64,000 nt of DNA from Robertkochia aurantiaca (GTDB lineage Bacteria > Bacteroidota > Bacteroidia > Flavobacteriales > Flavobacteriaceae), in assembly GCF_020166495.1 (NCBI RefSeq), contig NZ_JAINZS010000006.1:372001-436000 (forward strand). The letters are read 5' to 3'. The notes below the pieces were generated by a model. It saw only the letters and a list, made by a program, of their open reading frames with translations. It had not been told where the DNA came from and ran no database searches. Numbering within the stretch: the stretch's first letter is position 1; each line of letters starts with the position of its first letter. Of the stretch, positions 26,267 to 35,141 are shown piece by piece. The translations under genes were made by a program, and so were the position numbers.

Positions 26267-26815
26267 ATGGGTAAGAAATACGACCGTATAAACCAGAGGC
26301 TTCAGGATTTTATCGAACGCCAGAAGATTTTCTTTACGGCCACGGCTGCAAGTGAAGGCAGGATCAACCTGTCACCCAAAGGAATGGATACTTTCAGGGT
26401 GCTTGATTCGAACCGGGTCATGTGGTTGAACCTTACCGGCAGCGGTAACGAAACTGCCGCACACCTTCTTCAGAACGACCGTATCACTATTATGTTCTGC
26501 GCTTTCGAAGGGGTGCCTATGATACTTCGCCTTTATGGAAGGGCTGTTGCCTATCATCCCGGTGATGCCGAATTTGATAAGTACATAGGGCTATTCCCGG
26601 AGATCGCCGGGACCCGTCAGCTTTTCGATGTTGCAGTGGAACTCGTTCAGACCTCCTGTGGCATGGGGGTGCCTCTTATGGATTTCAGGCAGCACCGTGA
26701 TGAACTCAGAACCTGGGCCGAAGAACTGGGTGAAGATGGAATCGCAGACTACCAGGAGCGGAAGAATCAAAGCAGTATCGATGGGCTGCCTACCAGGCTA
26801 CCCGTTAAAAACTGA
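26267..26815 (+). CDS. Pyridoxamine 5'-phosphate oxidase-like flavoprotein
   Basis: The 182-aa protein has a split-barrel FMN-binding fold: FIERQKIFFTATAASEGRINLSPKG near the N-terminus, VMWLNLTGSGNETAAHLLQNDRITIMFCAF in the middle, and an ending motif (QTSCGMGVPLMDF) seen in the long PNPOx-like family. The family includes FMN- or F420-dependent reductases rather than true vitamin B6 enzymes, so substrate and cofactor are undetermined. Cytoplasmic. Its last 11 bp overlap the 3' end of the convergent 1230-aa gene. Confidence 0.85.
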   Translation: MGKKYDRINQRLQDFIERQKIFFTATAASEGRINLSPKGMDTFRVLDSNRVMWLNLTGSGNETAAHLLQNDRITIMFCAFEGVPMILRLYGRAVAYHPGDAEFDKYIGLFPEIAGTRQLFDVAVELVQTSCGMGVPLMDFRQHRDELRTWAEELGEDGIADYQERKNQSSIDGLPTRLPVKN

Positions 26816-29800
26816 TCCCGAAACCAAAGGCGAAACGGTTGCCTTCGTCTGAGTTAAAGAAAGATACATCCAGATAGATCAGGTTGCTGGCTGCTACATA
26901 AATACCGCCACCGATTGAATCATGCCAACTGTTTTCAGGATCTCCTGACGCCCAGACCCTTCCGTAGTCATAGCCCAGATAAATACCCGGCTGCATCGGT
27001 AAAAGTCGTGTTCTGTATTCCCTGAAGTTGTACCTGAGGTCTCCGTTGAAAACCAGGCTGTGTTTCCCTGTAAACCTGTTTATTCTGTATCCCCTGAGTC
27101 CGTTGTTTCCTCCCAGGAAGGCTCCCTGGTAAAACTCAAATCCGTTCCCGAAATTCAAATGACTGGCAACCCCGGTCTTCAGTACCAGCTTTTTATCGGA
27201 GGTGAGGCGTGAATAATACAGCAATTCCGGTTTGAGGTAGGCAAAATCTTTGCTCCCGTTCTTCAGGTTCCGGGTATAGCCGGTCTCTATATCGAAGCGC
27301 ATACCCCTGGATGGATTGATGTCACGATCATAACTTTCATACAGAAATCCGAATTCGAGGCTCATGAAATATTTCCAGTCATAGAATTCGGGATCGTCAC
27401 TGAAGGTAGTGATGAACCGACCTTCAGTCTCATCGACCTTTACGCCTTCGAAACGAAGCAAGGCTCTCATGTCGTTCCCGTAGTCGGAGCGTCTCACAAT
27501 TCCTGTTTCCAGGCTCATATTGCTGAGGTTGACCCGGTTGTAGTCAAGTCCCAGTTCTTCGTCGGGGTTTTCAGATTCCGTTCCTAAACCAAAGAAGTTA
27601 TGCGCGAAGGTCGGACTGTTATAGCGGGCGCCTACCCAAAGATTCGAAGACTTGAACCAACCCGCAAACTCCCCCTGGTATTGAACTTCGACTCCTTCGG
27701 TCGCAAAGTGATATTTGAGACCGATATCATGACTGCTGGTGAAGGGATTCCGCTCGAATCCATAACTGGTGATATTGTAATTAACGCCTGCGATGACCCC
27801 CGCATCAGGATTAAACCCGATTCCCGGAAGCAACATATTGGTCGAATATTTGTTCTTGCTGAAGGTGAACAGGTTGTTTTCATAGATATCGGTAAAGCGC
27901 TTGGTTCCGCCATCGTTTCTGATTATCGTATTCTTTTTAGATTTATGGTCGTAGAACCTAAGTCTGTGACCATTTTCAATATCATAGCTGTCGTTGTTTT
28001 GTCCGCCGATAAGCCTTACGAGGATTTTTGATTTGTAATCGCCTGTAACGGTAAAGGTATCGGTATCATCCAGGCCGTAGATCCATATCTCCTCGGTCTG
28101 CTCAGGGTCGAAGGTCTTATCCAGTAAAAGGTCTGCACGTTCCCCGTCTTTATTCCGGTAGATCTCTACGCGGGTGAACCCGTCTTCGAGTCTTTTCACA
28201 TCGATATAATCATCTTTGTCTGTACCGCGAAGCACCACCGTTTGGTTGAGAATGTCATAATAGTTTTCTGCGATCTCCTGAAGCAATGCTTTTCGGCCGA
28301 TCAGGGTCTTTTTGATCTCTTCCATGCTTTCATCCTGAACCTCCAGTGGCATTTCCCTGAAGGCCGAATCGATGACTTCTTCTGTAAGGGTGTTCTGTAA
28401 GTGTTTTGCTTCCCTGATAAAGTCTTCGAGTCTTGCGTTCTGTATCAGAACACGGTCCATGGGCAGGGGTTCTGTGTTGAACCATTCAAGGTTTTTCAGT
28501 TCGGGTTCATAGCGCTGCATCATTCGGGCCGGAGCGACAAGCGTACGTATGGAGCTGAGGAAAGCTCCGTCAAAGTCAGAAAAAGCCTGGTCTCTGTCGC
28601 GGGGCACCGGTCTGTATATATCGAGCTCGCCTTCTTCAAATTTAGCCCATCGCCACTGATCGGTGTGCCTGTCCCAGTCTCCGATGAGCATATCGAAGAG
28701 CCTGGCCCTTACATAGGCATTCTCATCCAGGCGGTTTTCTTCATCTTCCCTCAGATCGGCGAAGAGATCATCGGTACTGTCGATGTCATTGGCATAACCG
28801 AACCCCGGGTTGTTGTTGTGCTCATCGGCCGGACGCTCCTCGATCATATAGAGTTCATCTCCATAGAGTTCATTGTATTTGCCCAGGGCCGGTTGTTTCG
28901 GAATGTAGTAGAGTTGTGGGTGGGTGTGAAAAACCCCGGCTGCCTTTGCGAGTACTGTTATGGGGTAAGCCGCATAGGGGTGGGCTGTGGTATAGAAGTC
29001 CTGCAGAAATTCTTCAGGAAGTGTCCCGGTAAGGTCTTCCTGTTCCAACACTTTGTCTTTCAATACGACTGTCTGCAGGAACTGGGCGCCACTCTTTTTG
29101 AGTCCTCTCATATTGAACTCACGTCCCTCGCTGTCGACCAGTCTTAATGTCTTGGTCTGATGACCTCCTCCCATACGAATCGGTGTAAGGCCGCCATAAA
29201 GGGTGTCAAGCAGGGCAACTTTTGCTTTTATCTTTCTTCCGTACAGTTCGCGGTAGTGATCCCCCCAAACCCCTGCGTAGAGATTTGAGACATCGATCTC
29301 TCCTGGCTCATATACCGAAGATTCGATCTCCCGGGGATACTCTGCCGGAAATACAGGTTCGCGATATGCGATTCTCGGCGGGAATACCTCTGTCTGAAAT
29401 ACCGGTTCACCCGGTTTTTCGGCATCGTAATAACGAATCCATGAAGAGCCATCGGTAAATACATCCAGTACGGCATACCCCTGGTTTCCGTAGGTGAAAA
29501 CCGCATCTCCGGTTAGTTTGGTGGCTGAAATCTTAGATCCTGAGCCTGAAACCACCTGCCTGAAATTCTCAGACTCCGTGTATTGAAGGGAGTGCTCGTG
29601 ACCTGATACAAATATGACCCTTGCGGGTGCTTCTTTCACAATGGATTTTATACGGGTGGTGAATTCCCTGTATTTCTCGTTTTGAATATCCTGAATCGAG
29701 ATACCTCCTGACTTGCGTGTGATCGTGATCAGGGAACCAAGTCCGGGAAGGGGTATCTTTTTCTGAAAGGGAAACAGGTGCTTCTCTGCAGCGTAGTAAC

Positions 29801-30497
29801 CTCCATGAGGCCCGTAAGAATATAGCGGGTGATGAATGGCTATGAGCACGGTCTTGCCTTCTGCTTTCTTGAGCATGGTTTCCAATTCTATAAAGAATTG
29901 ACGGCGCGTCTTTATCTCACAGTCATCATTGATGGTCGGGTGGTCATCCCAATCTTCGAGAAACAACTGAGAATCAATGATGATGATGTGCGTCTGATCA
30001 TCGATATCAACTTCGTCCAGGCCACATGCATCACTGGGGAGGAAGCCGTGTTTTAAGTCGAGCCTGTCTTCTATAAAATCTTCCTGTCTTTGTAAGCCTT
30101 TAATACCGCCGCTGTACCAGTCGTGATTCCCGGGAATAAAAACACTGCGGCCGGGAAAACGTGCTGCAGCTTCCACCTGCACCTGCAGCCTGTGAGCCGC
30201 AAGTTCATAATCGGGGTCTTCTTTTTTTGGGAGGCCGTTGGGATAAATATTATCGCCCAGGTATAATGCAAAATCATCTGCTTTTCCTTCAGCCATGGCA
30301 TCGCTCCATGCCTTTATGGCCCGGCTGGGTTCTCCGGCGGGAGAATTCCCGGCATCTCCAAGGAGATAGAACCGTTTGTGAAGGGTTCGGTCTTCTGGAT
30401 ATAACTCGTAGGCTTCTTCGCGGTATTGAACCTCGTAAGACGCACAGGCGGTGAGGAGAAAAAAAATAAGAAAGGGAGAAAATTGAGTAAGCCGCAT
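26805..30497 (-). CDS. Metallophosphoesterase / kinase-like / Omp85-type barrel fusion lipoprotein
   Basis: The 1230-aa protein has a lipoprotein signal (FLLTAC, Cys18). Residues 42-330 form a calcineurin-like metallophosphoesterase with all metal motifs: GDAGN (47), GDNIY (81), GNHDW (123), HHPLY (222) and GHEHS (299). Residues about 430-760 look like an atypical kinase: Gly-rich loop RMGGGHQTKTLRL (441-453), lysines after NMRGLKK (462-468), a catalytic-loop-like LIGDWDRHTDQ (604-614) and a metal-site-like PRDRDQAF (632-639), the order seen in HipA/Fam20C-type folds. Residues about 880-1230 form a beta-barrel with Omp85-like strands (GGNNGLRGYR, ending FAFGFGISF). The kinase reading is inference. 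It is divergent from the HD-PycTM gene with 43 bp between. Confidence 0.85.
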   Translation of the reverse strand: MRLTQFSPFLIFFLLTACASYEVQYREEAYELYPEDRTLHKRFYLLGDAGNSPAGEPSRAIKAWSDAMAEGKADDFALYLGDNIYPNGLPKKEDPDYELAAHRLQVQVEAAARFPGRSVFIPGNHDWYSGGIKGLQRQEDFIEDRLDLKHGFLPSDACGLDEVDIDDQTHIIIIDSQLFLEDWDDHPTINDDCEIKTRRQFFIELETMLKKAEGKTVLIAIHHPLYSYGPHGGYYAAEKHLFPFQKKIPLPGLGSLITITRKSGGISIQDIQNEKYREFTTRIKSIVKEAPARVIFVSGHEHSLQYTESENFRQVVSGSGSKISATKLTGDAVFTYGNQGYAVLDVFTDGSSWIRYYDAEKPGEPVFQTEVFPPRIAYREPVFPAEYPREIESSVYEPGEIDVSNLYAGVWGDHYRELYGRKIKAKVALLDTLYGGLTPIRMGGGHQTKTLRLVDSEGREFNMRGLKKSGAQFLQTVVLKDKVLEQEDLTGTLPEEFLQDFYTTAHPYAAYPITVLAKAAGVFHTHPQLYYIPKQPALGKYNELYGDELYMIEERPADEHNNNPGFGYANDIDSTDDLFADLREDEENRLDENAYVRARLFDMLIGDWDRHTDQWRWAKFEEGELDIYRPVPRDRDQAFSDFDGAFLSSIRTLVAPARMMQRYEPELKNLEWFNTEPLPMDRVLIQNARLEDFIREAKHLQNTLTEEVIDSAFREMPLEVQDESMEEIKKTLIGRKALLQEIAENYYDILNQTVVLRGTDKDDYIDVKRLEDGFTRVEIYRNKDGERADLLLDKTFDPEQTEEIWIYGLDDTDTFTVTGDYKSKILVRLIGGQNNDSYDIENGHRLRFYDHKSKKNTIIRNDGGTKRFTDIYENNLFTFSKNKYSTNMLLPGIGFNPDAGVIAGVNYNITSYGFERNPFTSSHDIGLKYHFATEGVEVQYQGEFAGWFKSSNLWVGARYNSPTFAHNFFGLGTESENPDEELGLDYNRVNLSNMSLETGIVRRSDYGNDMRALLRFEGVKVDETEGRFITTFSDDPEFYDWKYFMSLEFGFLYESYDRDINPSRGMRFDIETGYTRNLKNGSKDFAYLKPELLYYSRLTSDKKLVLKTGVASHLNFGNGFEFYQGAFLGGNNGLRGYRINRFTGKHSLVFNGDLRYNFREYRTRLLPMQPGIYLGYDYGRVWASGDPENSWHDSIGGGIYVAASNLIYLDVSFFNSDEGNRFAFGFGISF

Positions 30498-30540: not shown

Positions 30541-31737
30541 ATGAAAGCAAAGCAAAAGATCATGAACGATAAACTTGTAGAAGAAGCCGCAGCATATGTC
30601 AGTGAGCTGTTATCTACAAAGCTCGATAAGAAGTACCTCTATCACAATCTACGTCATACCGAGCGGGTAGTTAAAAATACGAAAGTCCTGATTGATAACC
30701 ACGAACTTTCCCCAAAAGAGCAGGAAAACCTGCTGCTGGCCGCCTGGTTTCATGATACCGGATATATTCACGGAAGCGAGAACCACGAAGAAAACAGTTG
30801 TGAAATAGCCAGTGACTGGTTAAAGGAACGGGAGGTTGATGTGAACCGGATCGCCCAGGTCTGCGAGGTCATTCTGTCTACAAAAATGGAAGCCGAACCT
30901 GAGAACGAATTACAAAAGATACTGAAAGATGCAGATTCATCTCATCTGTCTAAACCCAGCTATATCAACACCTCAGAGATTCTAAGGCAGGAGCTTAAAC
31001 TCACCGGGGTAGCTGAATATTCACTTGAAGAATGGCGAAAGGAGAACATACAGTTGCTGGTCAACCGTCATAAATTCTACACAGACTTTGCAAAGAAGAA
31101 CTGGAACAAAGGCAAGGAAGAGAATATTGAAGAGCTGGCCAAGCAGCAACGAAAAGCCAAAAGGAGGCAGCATAAGGAAGAATTAAAAGTGCATCTTAAA
31201 GGCAAGAATCCTGACAGAGGGATACAGACCCTGTACAGGGTGACCCTGAGGAACCATCTGAAGCTGAGTGATATTGCAGACACCAAGGCAAACATTCTTT
31301 TGTCGGTTAATGCCATAATTATTTCCCTGGCACTGGCAAATCTGATACCAAAACTGGATAATCCTTCGAACAGTCACCTGTTATTGCCCAGTCTCATCCT
31401 GGTGCTTTTCAGTGTGGTTTCTATCATATTTGCCATACTTTCCACCAGGCCTAATGTAAGCAGTGGTGAGTTTTCTGATGAAGATGTAAAAGACCGCAAA
31501 GTCAACCTGTTGTTTTTCGGCAACTTTCACAAGATGCCTTACATGAAATATGAATCGGCACTCAGGGAGATGATCGTAGACCAGGAATATATCTATGATT
31601 CGTTGACGAAAGATCTCTATTATCTGGGGGTGGTGCTGGCGCGCAAGTACCGGCTTTTGCGTATTACCTATACTGTGTTTATGATCGGGATCATACTTTC
31701 GGTGCTTACTTTTCTGGCGGCCTTTCTTCTGATTTAG
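30541..31737 (+). CDS. HD domain fused to Pycsar-effector-like (PycTM/DUF5706) membrane domain
   Basis: The 398-aa protein has an N-terminal HD phosphohydrolase domain (about 12-170) with metal residues in order: H35/H39 (YHNLRHTERV), H71-D72 (WFHDTGY) and D130 (LKDADSSH). A basic linker (about 195-225) leads to a PycTM-like region with the family signature LSDIADTKANILLSVNAIIISL (241-262) and helices at about 250-270, 280-301 and 373-397. In Pycsar anti-phage systems PycTM proteins sense cyclic UMP or CMP and damage the membrane; HD-fused versions are widespread in Bacteroidota and may be housekeeping. No pyrimidine cyclase gene is in the window. The 3' end overlaps the GAF gene by 32 bp. 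Confidence 0.85.
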   Translation: MKAKQKIMNDKLVEEAAAYVSELLSTKLDKKYLYHNLRHTERVVKNTKVLIDNHELSPKEQENLLLAAWFHDTGYIHGSENHEENSCEIASDWLKEREVDVNRIAQVCEVILSTKMEAEPENELQKILKDADSSHLSKPSYINTSEILRQELKLTGVAEYSLEEWRKENIQLLVNRHKFYTDFAKKNWNKGKEENIEELAKQQRKAKRRQHKEELKVHLKGKNPDRGIQTLYRVTLRNHLKLSDIADTKANILLSVNAIIISLALANLIPKLDNPSNSHLLLPSLILVLFSVVSIIFAILSTRPNVSSGEFSDEDVKDRKVNLLFFGNFHKMPYMKYESALREMIVDQEYIYDSLTKDLYYLGVVLARKYRLLRITYTVFMIGIILSVLTFLAAFLLI

Positions 31738-34087
31738 CAAGTTCCTGCATCAGGTCTTCATAAGTGAGCTTGCTCTTATGTTCTTCATGACGATAGAGTA
31801 TACCCACCCTTAAGGCTTTAAGTCCGCTGACACCCTGGGTGTTGTCGATCTCATGGATCTCATGGTTGGCAGCAAGTATTCCCTTTGATTGCAGAAGTCT
31901 TACGTATCTTAAATATTCCCGTTCTTCATTTTTTCCGCCATATACAATGGTGATATGCCCGGGTTTGGTGATGCGCTCGTCGGTTCCCAGAATCAGGGAT
32001 TTGTCGATACGTTTTTTAAGTATCTCATAGCGGGCATTATATGACCCGTCTACATCGAAATGCTTTTCATCCATTCTGAACTTAATGGCAAGCGGGTTGG
32101 AATGCACGAGAATCATAGAGGTGACATCAAGCGGAATTTCCAGTTCGGGTTTGAGATTATAGTACACATTTTCCATATGGCACATGGTTTCTAATTGCCA
32201 TAATCTCAGGTTCTGAAGATACACCTCGCTGTATTCCCGGTCTTTTGAAATGGAAGCTCCGATATACATGGTATGCTCCACCCCATCGGTCTTGTACCGC
32301 TCGAAGTAATGAGGGAACATCGCGTAGGCTTCTTCGTGTTTCTGATCCAGAAGCCTTGCCATACGGCGGTTGATCAGGTTGACAGTATTATCGTATTTAT
32401 TCCGGTAGGTGTTGATCATTCCGCTTTTCGAATCGATTCGCTCTTCATATTGAAGAACCTTCTTATTCAGATCTGCACTAATCGTTCTCAGTTGTGGGAG
32501 AACCGGATGGATTTCCTCGAAAAGAAAATTGATGATATCCTGTTCCGTATTTGTCAGGTAGTCGTTCCTGACATTGTCGATCAGTGACATGATACGGAAG
32601 TTGTATTCTTCATAAATAGGAAGTCTGCCGTGTTTAATGGCAAGATCCATGATCTCCTCGACCAGCGATAGTTGTTCCAGAAGGTCCCGCCGGGTTGCTG
32701 AGTTTCTTTCCTCTGAGGAATTCCTGATGTCGATCTGACCGTAAAGCGGGTGAACATCTTTAAAGCTGATCTCTCTGAATGAAACCATATTTCCTTTTTC
32801 CTTTTCTCTGAGGAAGTGTCTGGCTTCTTCAACAAATTTCCATTTCACACTGTCATGTATGGAGGTGCACTCGTTCTGTATCACTGCCTCAATGCGGTTG
32901 GCCTCTTCATTGCGGTTCCTGGCTACGGCAGTCACAATAAAAGGCATGACGTCATTCAGCTTATTGGCATTCACGCTGTTGAGTTCTTTTCTCCTGGGTG
33001 ACAGCAATTCCAATACGCCCAGCAACTCCCCGTCACGGGCTACGGGAGCCAGGATGATACTTTTGTACCCCTGCTTCTTATACCGGTCATAGGCTTTGCG
33101 GTCTCCGGAATCTGTGACATAGCGGTCGATGTCAGATATGGCAAAATAACTGTGATTGTTTAACAGGGCATTCTTGGCCCCTCCGCAGAACAAATGTTCA
33201 CAACGCTCGAGGCTTTCCCCTTCCAGCAGGTAACTGGGAACGTTCTCGTTGATGCGTTCAAAGCTTTTGGTATTCTCTTCATAGGCAGAAAACCCGATCT
33301 TCAGATCCGGAATACCATATATCGACTTAAAGACATTAGTGAACCAGGAAAGGTTAAGACTGCTTTTGGCACTGGTGTTCAGCAAGCCCGTTTTTAATTC
33401 AGAAATAGAATTGTCGATGGTCACATCAAAGATGTTTGAAATAACAAAGCCTTTGGCAACCCAGCTTCCCGGAGGAAACTTCTCTTTCCACAGCTCTATA
33501 TTATCAAAACCATTCAGCAATTCGTCTATGTCGCCTTCATCGAGGTCAACCGCATTTTCCGTCGGGTAGATCTCCATGAAGTCTGCGTTATAGGTTACCC
33601 TGTAATGCTTCATGATTCCCTGTGAATCGGGTATGTCGTAGTATAAGGGTCTTCTGAACTGCACATTTCGCCCGTAGTAAAAACTCAGAATAACACTGCA
33701 GGCCATAATGTACATGTCATTGTCAGGGATCTCCCTGAATTTCGGACTGAAGTCATCACCTGCTTCACTAACGATATTGTCAAAGCGTTTAGAAGATTTA
33801 AAGATAAAACCTTCAAACGGTACCCCTGCGGTCTTGATCTCGTTATAAGTCAATATCGGGGAAAAGGAATCCTGTAACAGGCGGTCGATGACCTCCTGGT
33901 ACTTATGAACCGATTCAAATTCGGTAAACCCTTCCCGAAGTTCAGGGTACTCCTTTTGAATCTCAAGCACTTCTTTTGCCCTGGCGGCGATATCAGTATC
34001 ATCGCTTTTAGCGAGCATTTCATATGATTCCATCAGCTTATTAAAGCTGATATACATAGTAAAAGGAGAAGAAGTATGTTTATCCAT
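31706..34087 (-). CDS. Large GAF-domain protein of unknown function
   Basis: The 793-aa cytoplasmic protein has a GAF-like domain at about residues 235-395 (with YFAISDIDRYVTDSGDR, GYKSIILAPVARDGELLGVLELLSP and a following helix). The N-terminal 230 residues and C-terminal 400 residues match nothing I recognise; the C-terminus is helical, then mixed alpha/beta near ITIVYGGKNEEREYLRYVR. No kinase, cyclase, GGDEF or DNA-binding motif is visible. GAF domains commonly bind cyclic nucleotides or other small ligands, which is suggestive next to the HD-PycTM gene, but convergent orientation argues against a simple operon. Confidence 0.75.
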   Translation of the reverse strand: MDKHTSSPFTMYISFNKLMESYEMLAKSDDTDIAARAKEVLEIQKEYPELREGFTEFESVHKYQEVIDRLLQDSFSPILTYNEIKTAGVPFEGFIFKSSKRFDNIVSEAGDDFSPKFREIPDNDMYIMACSVILSFYYGRNVQFRRPLYYDIPDSQGIMKHYRVTYNADFMEIYPTENAVDLDEGDIDELLNGFDNIELWKEKFPPGSWVAKGFVISNIFDVTIDNSISELKTGLLNTSAKSSLNLSWFTNVFKSIYGIPDLKIGFSAYEENTKSFERINENVPSYLLEGESLERCEHLFCGGAKNALLNNHSYFAISDIDRYVTDSGDRKAYDRYKKQGYKSIILAPVARDGELLGVLELLSPRRKELNSVNANKLNDVMPFIVTAVARNRNEEANRIEAVIQNECTSIHDSVKWKFVEEARHFLREKEKGNMVSFREISFKDVHPLYGQIDIRNSSEERNSATRRDLLEQLSLVEEIMDLAIKHGRLPIYEEYNFRIMSLIDNVRNDYLTNTEQDIINFLFEEIHPVLPQLRTISADLNKKVLQYEERIDSKSGMINTYRNKYDNTVNLINRRMARLLDQKHEEAYAMFPHYFERYKTDGVEHTMYIGASISKDREYSEVYLQNLRLWQLETMCHMENVYYNLKPELEIPLDVTSMILVHSNPLAIKFRMDEKHFDVDGSYNARYEILKKRIDKSLILGTDERITKPGHITIVYGGKNEEREYLRYVRLLQSKGILAANHEIHEIDNTQGVSGLKALRVGILYRHEEHKSKLTYEDLMQELAKSEERPPEK

Positions 34088-34238: not shown

Positions 34239-35141
34239 ATGTCTGTTAAAAGCCGTTATGATCTGGCCTATCGGAGGGCCAAAGTTCTCGAGTTCGATGA
34301 TCGCTCCCGATTTATTTTCTTAAGTGATTGTCACCGCGGCGACAATAGCTTTGCCGACGAATTTGCGAACAACCGGAATATTTATTATCACGCCCTTCAG
34401 GTCTATTATAAAAAGGGATTCACCTATTGTGAGCTTGGAGACGGAGATGAACTTTGGGAGAATCTTTCATTCGAGCCCATATTCGAATCACATAAGAATG
34501 TATTCATGCTGATCAGGGAATTTCATCGTGACAACCGGTATTTTCCCATTTACGGCAACCATGATATGGCATACCGGGATCCCGACCGGGTACGCAGGAA
34601 TTACAATACCCGGTTCGACCCTGAGAAAAGGCGGGAGGTACCATTTATGCCGGGCCTGGAATATACCGAATCGATCGTTTTGAAGCATCGTGACAGCGGT
34701 CAGGAGATCTTCCTGGTTCACGGGCATCAGGCAGACTGGTGGAATTACCTGTTCTGGAGAATGAGCAGGTTTATGGTTAGGGTGTTGTGGAAACCCCTTC
34801 AGGTAGTTGGCATATCTGATCCGACCAGCCCTGCCAAAAATAACCGCGAATCTATCCGGCAGGAAAAACGTACCGAAAGGTGGATAGCAGAAAAGGGAAA
34901 CCTTTTTACCATCACAGGGCATACACACCGGCCACGTTTTCCGGAGCCGGGAGAGTTGCCCCTTTTTAATGATGGCAGCTGTGTGCACCCCAGGAGTATA
35001 ACGGGTATTGAACTGGAAGAGGGACAGTTGAGTCTGATCAAGTGGTATGTCGATATAACCGAAGAAGGCTTTCTCCAAATAAAGAGGGAAGTTCTGGAAG
35101 GTCCCACCCGCCTTGAAGATTACCAAACATCTGCCATATGA
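34239..35141 (+). CDS. Cytoplasmic metallophosphoesterase (LpxH/UDP-diacylglucosamine-hydrolase-like)
   Basis: The 300-aa protein has a complete calcineurin-like motif set: FLSDCHRGD (about 27-35), GDGDELWE (about 67-74), YGNHDM (about 105-110), LVHGHQADWW (about 160-169) and TGHTHRPRF (about 223-231). The DELWE and HGHQADWW motifs recall LpxH-type hydrolases, though other phosphodiester substrates are possible. There is no signal peptide or membrane helix except a hydrophobic FWRMSRFMVRVLWKP patch that could touch the membrane. The stop overlaps the start of the PQQ dehydrogenase gene (ATGA at 35138), so the two are translationally coupled. Confidence 0.85.
   Translation: MSVKSRYDLAYRRAKVLEFDDRSRFIFLSDCHRGDNSFADEFANNRNIYYHALQVYYKKGFTYCELGDGDELWENLSFEPIFESHKNVFMLIREFHRDNRYFPIYGNHDMAYRDPDRVRRNYNTRFDPEKRREVPFMPGLEYTESIVLKHRDSGQEIFLVHGHQADWWNYLFWRMSRFMVRVLWKPLQVVGISDPTSPAKNNRESIRQEKRTERWIAEKGNLFTITGHTHRPRFPEPGELPLFNDGSCVHPRSITGIELEEGQLSLIKWYVDITEEGFLQIKREVLEGPTRLEDYQTSAI

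Follow-up and report, generated by a model that had tools for sequence, protein, structure and literature searches.

The subject of this analysis is a gene at positions 26805–30497 (minus strand) of the window, the whole 64,000-nucleotide stretch of Robertkochia aurantiaca DNA analyzed here (Bacteroidota; contig NZ_JAINZS010000006.1). On balance, its product is probably an outer-membrane lipoprotein with a central phosphotransferase of the protein-kinase-like (PKL) fold, nearest to CtkA and CotH, anchored by a lipid and a barrel, with an acid-phosphatase-like domain attached. Computation supported the three-domain architecture, the kinase-like fold, the conservation of the catalytic residues, the linkage to genes for HD-PycTM proteins, and, in part of the phylum, the linkage to polyphosphate kinase (PPK1) genes. 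The translation was unbroken (1230 residues), running from a lipoprotein signal through a metallophosphoesterase, the kinase-like domain, and a beta domain to an Omp85-type barrel. The fusion gene was present as a single copy in the 3.43-Mb genome.

Fold and conserved residues of the central domain

Two Pfam families matched the protein above the cut-off: PF00149 at residues 42–241 (E 1e-7) and PF01103 at residues 1035–1230 (E 6.4e-9). Between them, only sub-threshold matches were seen, none above the curated Pfam or NCBIfam cut-offs, and the sole NCBIfam listing for the protein, the Omp85 family NF047779, was below its cut-off. The kinase-like domain (residues 401–752; 28242–29297, minus strand, as are all features of the gene) had no Pfam or NCBIfam family. 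Neither PF08757 (CotH) nor PF07804 (HipA/CtkA) matched in Pfam in the window protein, and the family list for 54 members (25 of 27 families shown) contained neither.

Residues 388–862 were modeled with AlphaFold from 54 sequences (pLDDT 91.3, pTM 0.91). The N-lobe of the model runs from strand 438–442 through a Gly-rich loop to strand 448–454 and strand 460–468, which ends in K468; helices, strand 548–554 with E553 (28839–28841), helix 592–605, and loop 606–614 follow, and next come strands 615–622 and 625–632, then D634 and D636. This predicted order of elements agrees with the PKL pattern. The motifs were found at the residues quoted in the preliminary description: the Gly-rich loop RMGGGHQTKTLRL (441–453; 29139–29177) between two N-lobe strands, K467-K468 (K468 at 29094–29096, the end residue of the next strand), GDWDRHTDQ (606–614; 28656–28682) at the catalytic-loop position following the long helix, and PRDRDQAF (632–639; 28581–28604) at the metal-site position.

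When the model was compared with the PDB by Foldseek, CtkA chains accounted for four of the top six matches and CotH chains for two (E 2.7e-5 to 5.5e-4, probability 1.00), with Helicobacter pylori CtkA first (3akk, E 2.7e-5) and Bacillus cereus CotH (PF08757; 5JD9/5JDA) at E 2.3e-4. The remaining six at E ≤ 0.001 were Gcn2, Rv3197 (three), PI4KII-alpha, and COQ8A, and all twelve were taken to be kinases or kinase-like from their titles or from general knowledge. CtkA was also first in a PDB profile search, at the catalytic loop with the D-RH segment aligned, at a sub-threshold E of 0.12; the other two matches of that search were to ribosomal eS7 (E 0.36) and chance-like. In hhalign, the central domain was aligned with CotH (30 pieces, including two fragments of 22 and 183 residues) over 150 columns (E 5.8e-5, probability 65.7), with PRDRD placed on the CotH P-x-D-x-D segment, against E 0.055–0.71 for five unrelated neighbor families. 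The HipA_C profile match was weak (probability 2.2, E 0.022).

The preliminary description had likened the order and spacing of the motifs to those of HipA, Fam20C, and CotH. The kinase-like fold and the motif order stood in the model, the Foldseek and hhalign comparisons, and the conservation, and the structural comparison proposed there returned a kinase-like fold with CtkA and CotH as the best solved matches; of the named relatives, Fam20C was farther away than CtkA and CotH, and HipA was weak in the profile comparison. Fam20C was ruled out as the nearest relative, its Foldseek match being the weaker one. The Golgi casein kinase Fam20C is kinase-like in fold and extracytoplasmic, as is proposed for the window protein, with which its structural match is marginal. 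CotH resembles the central domain in fold and in a tentative profile match that takes in its catalytic loop and P-x-D-x-D; in the window protein, that domain is fused to a phosphoesterase, to a beta domain, and to an Omp85 barrel. Unlike CtkA/HipA-type kinases, it is a predicted exported lipoprotein. In the available part of PMC9758233, the Pfam kinase-clan families are named partially, and none of those named fits obviously.

Conservation was followed in two alignments. The near set came from a scan of GTDB genomes with six patterns, which gave 123 relatives; the best 80 loci, mostly Flavobacteriaceae going by record titles, were kept and aligned with the query (81 rows). K468, E553, and D636 were each present in 81/81 rows, as was G444 of the Gly-rich loop, and D609 and D634 in 80/81 each; all five key residues occurred together in 80/81 rows, L056 being the sole exception, and the figure for the catalytic motif may be biased upward because that motif (WDRHTDQW) served as one of the search patterns. 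The diverse set consisted of 83 rows, 68 from a whole-profile genome search (including the window) and 15 from the near set, with the window protein counted twice. In it, K468 was kept in 79/83 rows, E553 in 80/83 (3 gaps), D609 in 74/83, D634 in 81/83, and D636 in 79/83; the five were jointly intact in 74/83, and R599 and D602 were invariant (83/83). The residues that the preliminary description had expected to be invariant largely were so, with K468, D609, D634, and D636 kept in 80–81 of the 81 near rows; K467, which had been listed with them, was variable and was dropped, Lys being found there in just 9/83 diverse rows. Since at least one key residue was missing from 9/83 diverse rows, some family members are probably pseudokinases. 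The central domain of the window protein would be catalytically active. Columns conserved at ≥97% numbered 45/352 in the central domain, 29/299 in the phosphoesterase, 12/108 in the beta domain, and 35/351 in the barrel.

Phosphoesterase, barrel, and domain architectures

The metallophosphoesterase (residues 38–370; 29388–30386) was recognized by PF00149, by a PDB sequence match to human purple acid phosphatase (E 0.0015), and by Foldseek. In the last, a near-full-length model (residues 31–1230; pLDDT 87.3, pTM 0.82) matched GAP50 first (3tgh, E 1e-10), then mainly TamA and BamA entries; the GAP50 match presumably falls on the phosphoesterase domain, and GAP50 itself was taken to be acid-phosphatase-like. 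The metal-ligand positions, chosen from known motifs, were all filled in the window protein. Among the 81 near rows, 64 had intact ligands and 15 had lost them, 7 of these with one or two of the positions gapped and 8 with no gap; the ligands of the 2 remaining, incomplete rows could not be read. In 14 of the 15 rows with lost ligands, the five kinase residues were retained.

The mainly beta domain (residues 755–862; 27912–28235) is followed by the Omp85-type barrel (residues 884–1228; 26814–27848), for which we counted 16 strands in the model. The fusion of a metallophosphoesterase with an Omp85 barrel, as first described, was thereby borne out by PF00149, PF01103, the 16-strand model, and the Foldseek matches. 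The signal peptide (residues 1–18; 30444–30497) ends in the lipobox LTAC, and the lipobox Cys is followed by A-S-Y and then by E as the fourth residue. A lipoprotein start C-A-S/T was found in 67/81 rows, and none of these 67 had an acidic residue at any of the three positions after Cys; the other 14 rows comprised 11 without this start, 2 incomplete ones, and 1 that was slightly different. The eleven relatives without it (L060–L063, L066–L071, and L075) were also without the phosphoesterase ligands and kept the five kinase residues, and they may form a subgroup with a changed anchor.

The N-terminal domains of Omp85 proteins are normally periplasmic, while those of patatin-type Omp85 proteins are exported to the surface. 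Given Omp85 topology and the lipobox, the N-terminal domains of the window protein would face the periplasm. The surface placement in the preliminary description was not supported, and export of these domains to the surface in the patatin manner would be the less likely arrangement. The protein resembles TamA, BamA, and the Bacteroidetes Omp85 lipoproteins of Heinz and Lithgow (2014) in its 16-strand barrel and lipoprotein start, but has phosphoesterase and kinase-like domains in place of POTRA; no POTRA model was among the Pfam matches at E ≤ 10 in the window protein.

By profile search, the kinase-like domain was found in 144/395 Bacteroidota genomes and 75/171 genera. From the listed part of this search, 60 diverse loci in 52 genomes (L112–L171) were hand-picked to span families, 20 of them before and 40 after the PPK1 link had surfaced, with the neighbors unseen at the time of choice. 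The kinase cluster of these loci and the window contained 72 proteins: 27 of the order metallophosphoesterase-kinase-beta-barrel, 31 kinase-beta-barrel, 10 kinase-beta, 2 free phosphoesterases, and 2 free barrels. Each of the 68 proteins with a kinase-like domain also had the beta domain, and 41 of the 68 had no phosphoesterase domain. Within the stretches fetched, a separate gene matching the phosphoesterase profile was seen only at L115 and L116 (from a pair of genomes in the same genus), where kinase, phosphoesterase, and barrel were encoded by consecutive same-strand genes. A minimum of nine architecture changes was counted on the tree. Judged by these sequences, the kinase-like domain is the constant part of the family, and the phosphoesterase is common but dispensable.

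Three genomes of family f9 (L112, L113, and L114) carried divergently transcribed, free-standing kinase-like proteins. In each pair, the minus-strand member adjoining the divergent start had Ser for the catalytic Asp and the plus-strand member kept Asp, so that an enzyme with a pseudoenzyme partner is possible; L114 had a third copy of the kinase-like protein. At L126, an in-frame stop separated the phosphoesterase start from the remainder of the gene.

Genes linked to the kinase-like domain

The divergent neighbor of the window gene (30541–31737, plus strand) encodes a 398-residue protein with an HD domain and PycTM (PF01966, E 3.8e-7; PF18967, E 1.2e-35). With neighbor profiles built from L112–L171 and the window, HD-PycTM was found near the kinase gene at 60/80 near loci (L002–L081), 38/60 diverse loci, and 6/30 further loci with only about 1.5 kb of flank each (L082–L111). 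Genome-wide, full-length HD-PycTM, i.e., a match spanning both halves (half matches were kept apart, and HD-only and broken matches excluded), was present in 86/395 genomes, 84 of which carried the kinase gene (Fisher p 1.7e-43, ignoring kinship). Outside families f1 and f2, the kinase gene was present with full-length HD-PycTM in 42/44 genomes, versus 100/346.

PPK1 was found near 19/60 diverse loci, in 18 genomes of seven families, and confirmed by a purpose-built profile; the Pfam and NCBIfam scans covered the L118 PPK1 alone, and four of the 19 (L122, L130, L137, and L139) were cut by the end of the stretch. By chance, fewer than one PPK1-near locus was expected; the estimate assumed loci of about 17 kb, genome sizes of 2.4–7 Mb, and between zero and three copies of PPK1. 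A tree of 37 rows placed 18 of the 19 linked PPK1, along with the PPK1 of the window genome, on one side of a branch with 100/100 support and 17 PPK1 genes from elsewhere in these or other genomes on the other; L153 was exceptional, and the PPK1 of L144 and L153 had long branches. The 17 unlinked genes had been taken from the highest-scoring matches, which favors one PPK1 type, so the split is to be read as two PPK1 types and not as a dedicated one. The linked type (E ≤ 1e-225) occurred in 110 genomes, 83 with the kinase gene and 27 without it; on the latter count, the idea that this PPK1 type serves the kinase gene exclusively was rejected. Outside f1 and f2, the kinase gene was present with the linked type in 41/65 genomes, versus 100/346. 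A PPK1 gene beside the kinase gene was sought in the window and its near relatives, and there was none, with 0/80 at L002–L081 and 0/30 at the short-flank loci. An HD-PycTM match lay ≤1.7 kb from the linked PPK1 type in at least 23 genomes, two of which (G152 and G208) were outside the 86 full-length cases; the figure is a lower bound because the distances were worked out for a subset of places.

Beyond HD-PycTM lie a minus-strand gene for a 793-residue protein with sub-threshold GAF similarity only and no family above the cut-off (31706–34087) and a plus-strand gene for a separate 300-residue metallophosphoesterase (34239–35141), whose cluster was seen in 30/132 sources. GAF-like relatives of the 793-residue protein were near 49/80 near loci and 10/60 diverse loci, and SdiA-regulated-type proteins near 46/80 and 30/60. 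A SixA-type phosphatase was near 0/80 and 16/60, and a class III cyclase near 0/80 and 13/60. At the 30 short-flank loci, the counts for SdiA-type, GAF-like, PPK1, SixA, and cyclase genes were all zero.

Proposed role and alternatives

In the reading we prefer, the lipid and the Omp85-type barrel would hold the protein at the outer membrane, the kinase-like domain would phosphorylate an envelope component (protein, glycan, or lipid), and the phosphoesterase, which keeps its metal ligands in most near relatives, would serve as an optional counter-enzyme. The protein might belong to a polyphosphate-linked envelope module in which PPK1 and the SixA-type phosphatase would be cytoplasmic, HD-PycTM would sit in the inner membrane, and an SdiA-regulated-type propeller protein would join the kinase-barrel protein at the outer membrane.

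Several results weigh against this. The Foldseek TM-scores were modest (≤0.49 by target among the 50 rows listed), the CtkA and CotH superpositions had a root-mean-square deviation of >8 Å at 10–12% identity, the hhalign probability was only 66% for CotH and 2% for HipA, and the Fam20C entries 4kqb/4kqa matched weakly (E 0.018, probability 0.60). The central domain was scarcely more conserved than the neighboring domains, and the nine diverse rows lacking a key residue count here as well. As for the linked genes, none of HD-PycTM, SdiA, PPK1, and SixA was found at 19/60 diverse loci, 29/144 genomes with the kinase gene had neither full nor half HD-PycTM, and the 27 of 110 genomes that carry the linked PPK1 type without the kinase gene have to be added. 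PPK1 was absent from the flanks of all near and short-flank loci, and in the window genome it is located on a different contig, flanked by SixA-like and Ppx/GppA genes. Finally, we know of no ATP pool in the periplasm, and a periplasmic kinase would therefore be left without an obvious donor.

That the fold carries out some other chemistry, moving a non-phosphate group (AMP, glutamate) or acting on a small molecule or lipid, is rather unlikely. SelO, SidJ, and PI4KII are kinase-fold families with such chemistry or substrates, the fold by itself leaves the reaction unfixed, PI4KII-alpha was among the Foldseek matches at E ≤ 0.001 (E 9.3e-4, probability 0.99), and R599 and D602 were invariant. 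However, the protein retains the Lys, the DRH-type catalytic loop, and the DxD segment that PKL-fold phosphotransferases use. The conservation of all five residues in 74/83 diverse and 80/81 near rows goes beyond the need of a scaffold, and relaxed constraint is visible in the phosphoesterase of the same proteins (ligands lost in 15/81 rows); both argue against a pseudokinase whose fold is kept as a ligand sensor or adaptor governing the barrel or the phosphoesterase. This explanation, unlikely in our view, draws on the apparent lack of periplasmic ATP, on the diverse rows with a missing key residue, and on the Ser for the catalytic Asp in one partner of each L112–L114 pair.

Phosphate scavenging, with the phosphoesterase as the working enzyme and the remainder as an anchor or substrate binder, would suit an acid-phosphatase-like domain with intact ligands in 64/81 rows and phosphate-linked neighbors. 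It was considered very unlikely, as 41/68 kinase-bearing proteins had no phosphoesterase domain, with a separate gene only at L115 and L116 in the stretches fetched, and 14 of the 15 near rows with lost ligands still had the kinase residues. An unrelated alpha/beta domain with chance likeness in its motifs would be consistent with the lack of a Pfam or NCBIfam family and with TM-scores below 0.5 among the matches listed; against it stand the twelve Foldseek matches to kinases or kinase-like proteins (as judged from titles or general knowledge), the catalytic segment shared by the CotH and CtkA profile matches, and the motifs at kinase positions of the predicted secondary structure, and we hold it to be extremely improbable.

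Within the preferred phosphotransferase reading, the donor could be polyphosphate. As a bold guess, which the genomic linkage allows, the protein would represent a new outer-membrane kinase family drawing phosphate from polyphosphate, directly or via a carrier, in an ATP-free periplasm; PPK1 would make the polymer, HD-PycTM at the inner membrane would handle it, and envelope phosphate would be written by the kinase and erased by the phosphoesterase. This was rated as decidedly doubtful, a little more so once the linked PPK1 type proved to occur without the kinase gene as well.

Although the fold family itself is known, no paper describing its combination with a phosphoesterase and a barrel was found among the titles and abstract openings listed, most subscription papers and all bioRxiv preprints being outside the search. 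The terms metallophos, phosphoesterase, phosphatase, and kinase are absent from the available main text of an Omp85 survey (PMC4104836), and the last three from the available part of a paper on the Flavobacterium johnsoniae BAM (PMC12611786). A Riemerella metallophosphoesterase appears in a table of type IX secretion system effectors in the accessible part of PMC10202324; work by Niu et al. (2021) on a Riemerella metallophosphoesterase is cited in the accessible parts of PMC10281475 and PMC11834572. A phylum-wide outer-membrane kinase-like domain outside the Pfam and NCBIfam families would make one ask what drives phosphorylation beyond the Gram-negative cytoplasm. The mostly kept kinase residues, together with the PPK1 genes beside some relatives, hint at an unrecognized envelope phosphorylation system, for which the phosphatase-type fusion and the HD-PycTM and polyphosphate kinase links provide testable handles on donor, substrate, and partners.

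Among known systems, Pycsar is similar in that the window neighbor carries PycTM, and differs in that this neighbor adds an HD domain; no Pycsar cyclase was among the window neighbors examined, and the kinase protein matched no PADLOC model. At L131, L135, L136, and L141, the kinase-barrel gene was followed by a same-strand class III cyclase gene and then by a gene of the HD-PycTM cluster, about 190–220 residues long, the pair being Pycsar-like. The PADLOC PycC match was obtained for the L138 cyclase, the only one submitted. A separate CotH gene (L119:1835–2962; PF08757, E 7.2e-44, run on L119 only) and a porin-like gene were found near the kinase-barrel gene of L119, and the same CotH cluster was also present at L120 and L155. 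Homologues of the kinase-like domain were carried by five plasmid records, NZ_CP094537, CP012852, NZ_CP037921, NZ_CP049908, and NZ_OY725747 (three Hymenobacter, one Persicobacter, and one Parabacteroides); in four, the annotation reads hypothetical protein, and in the other no gene is listed.

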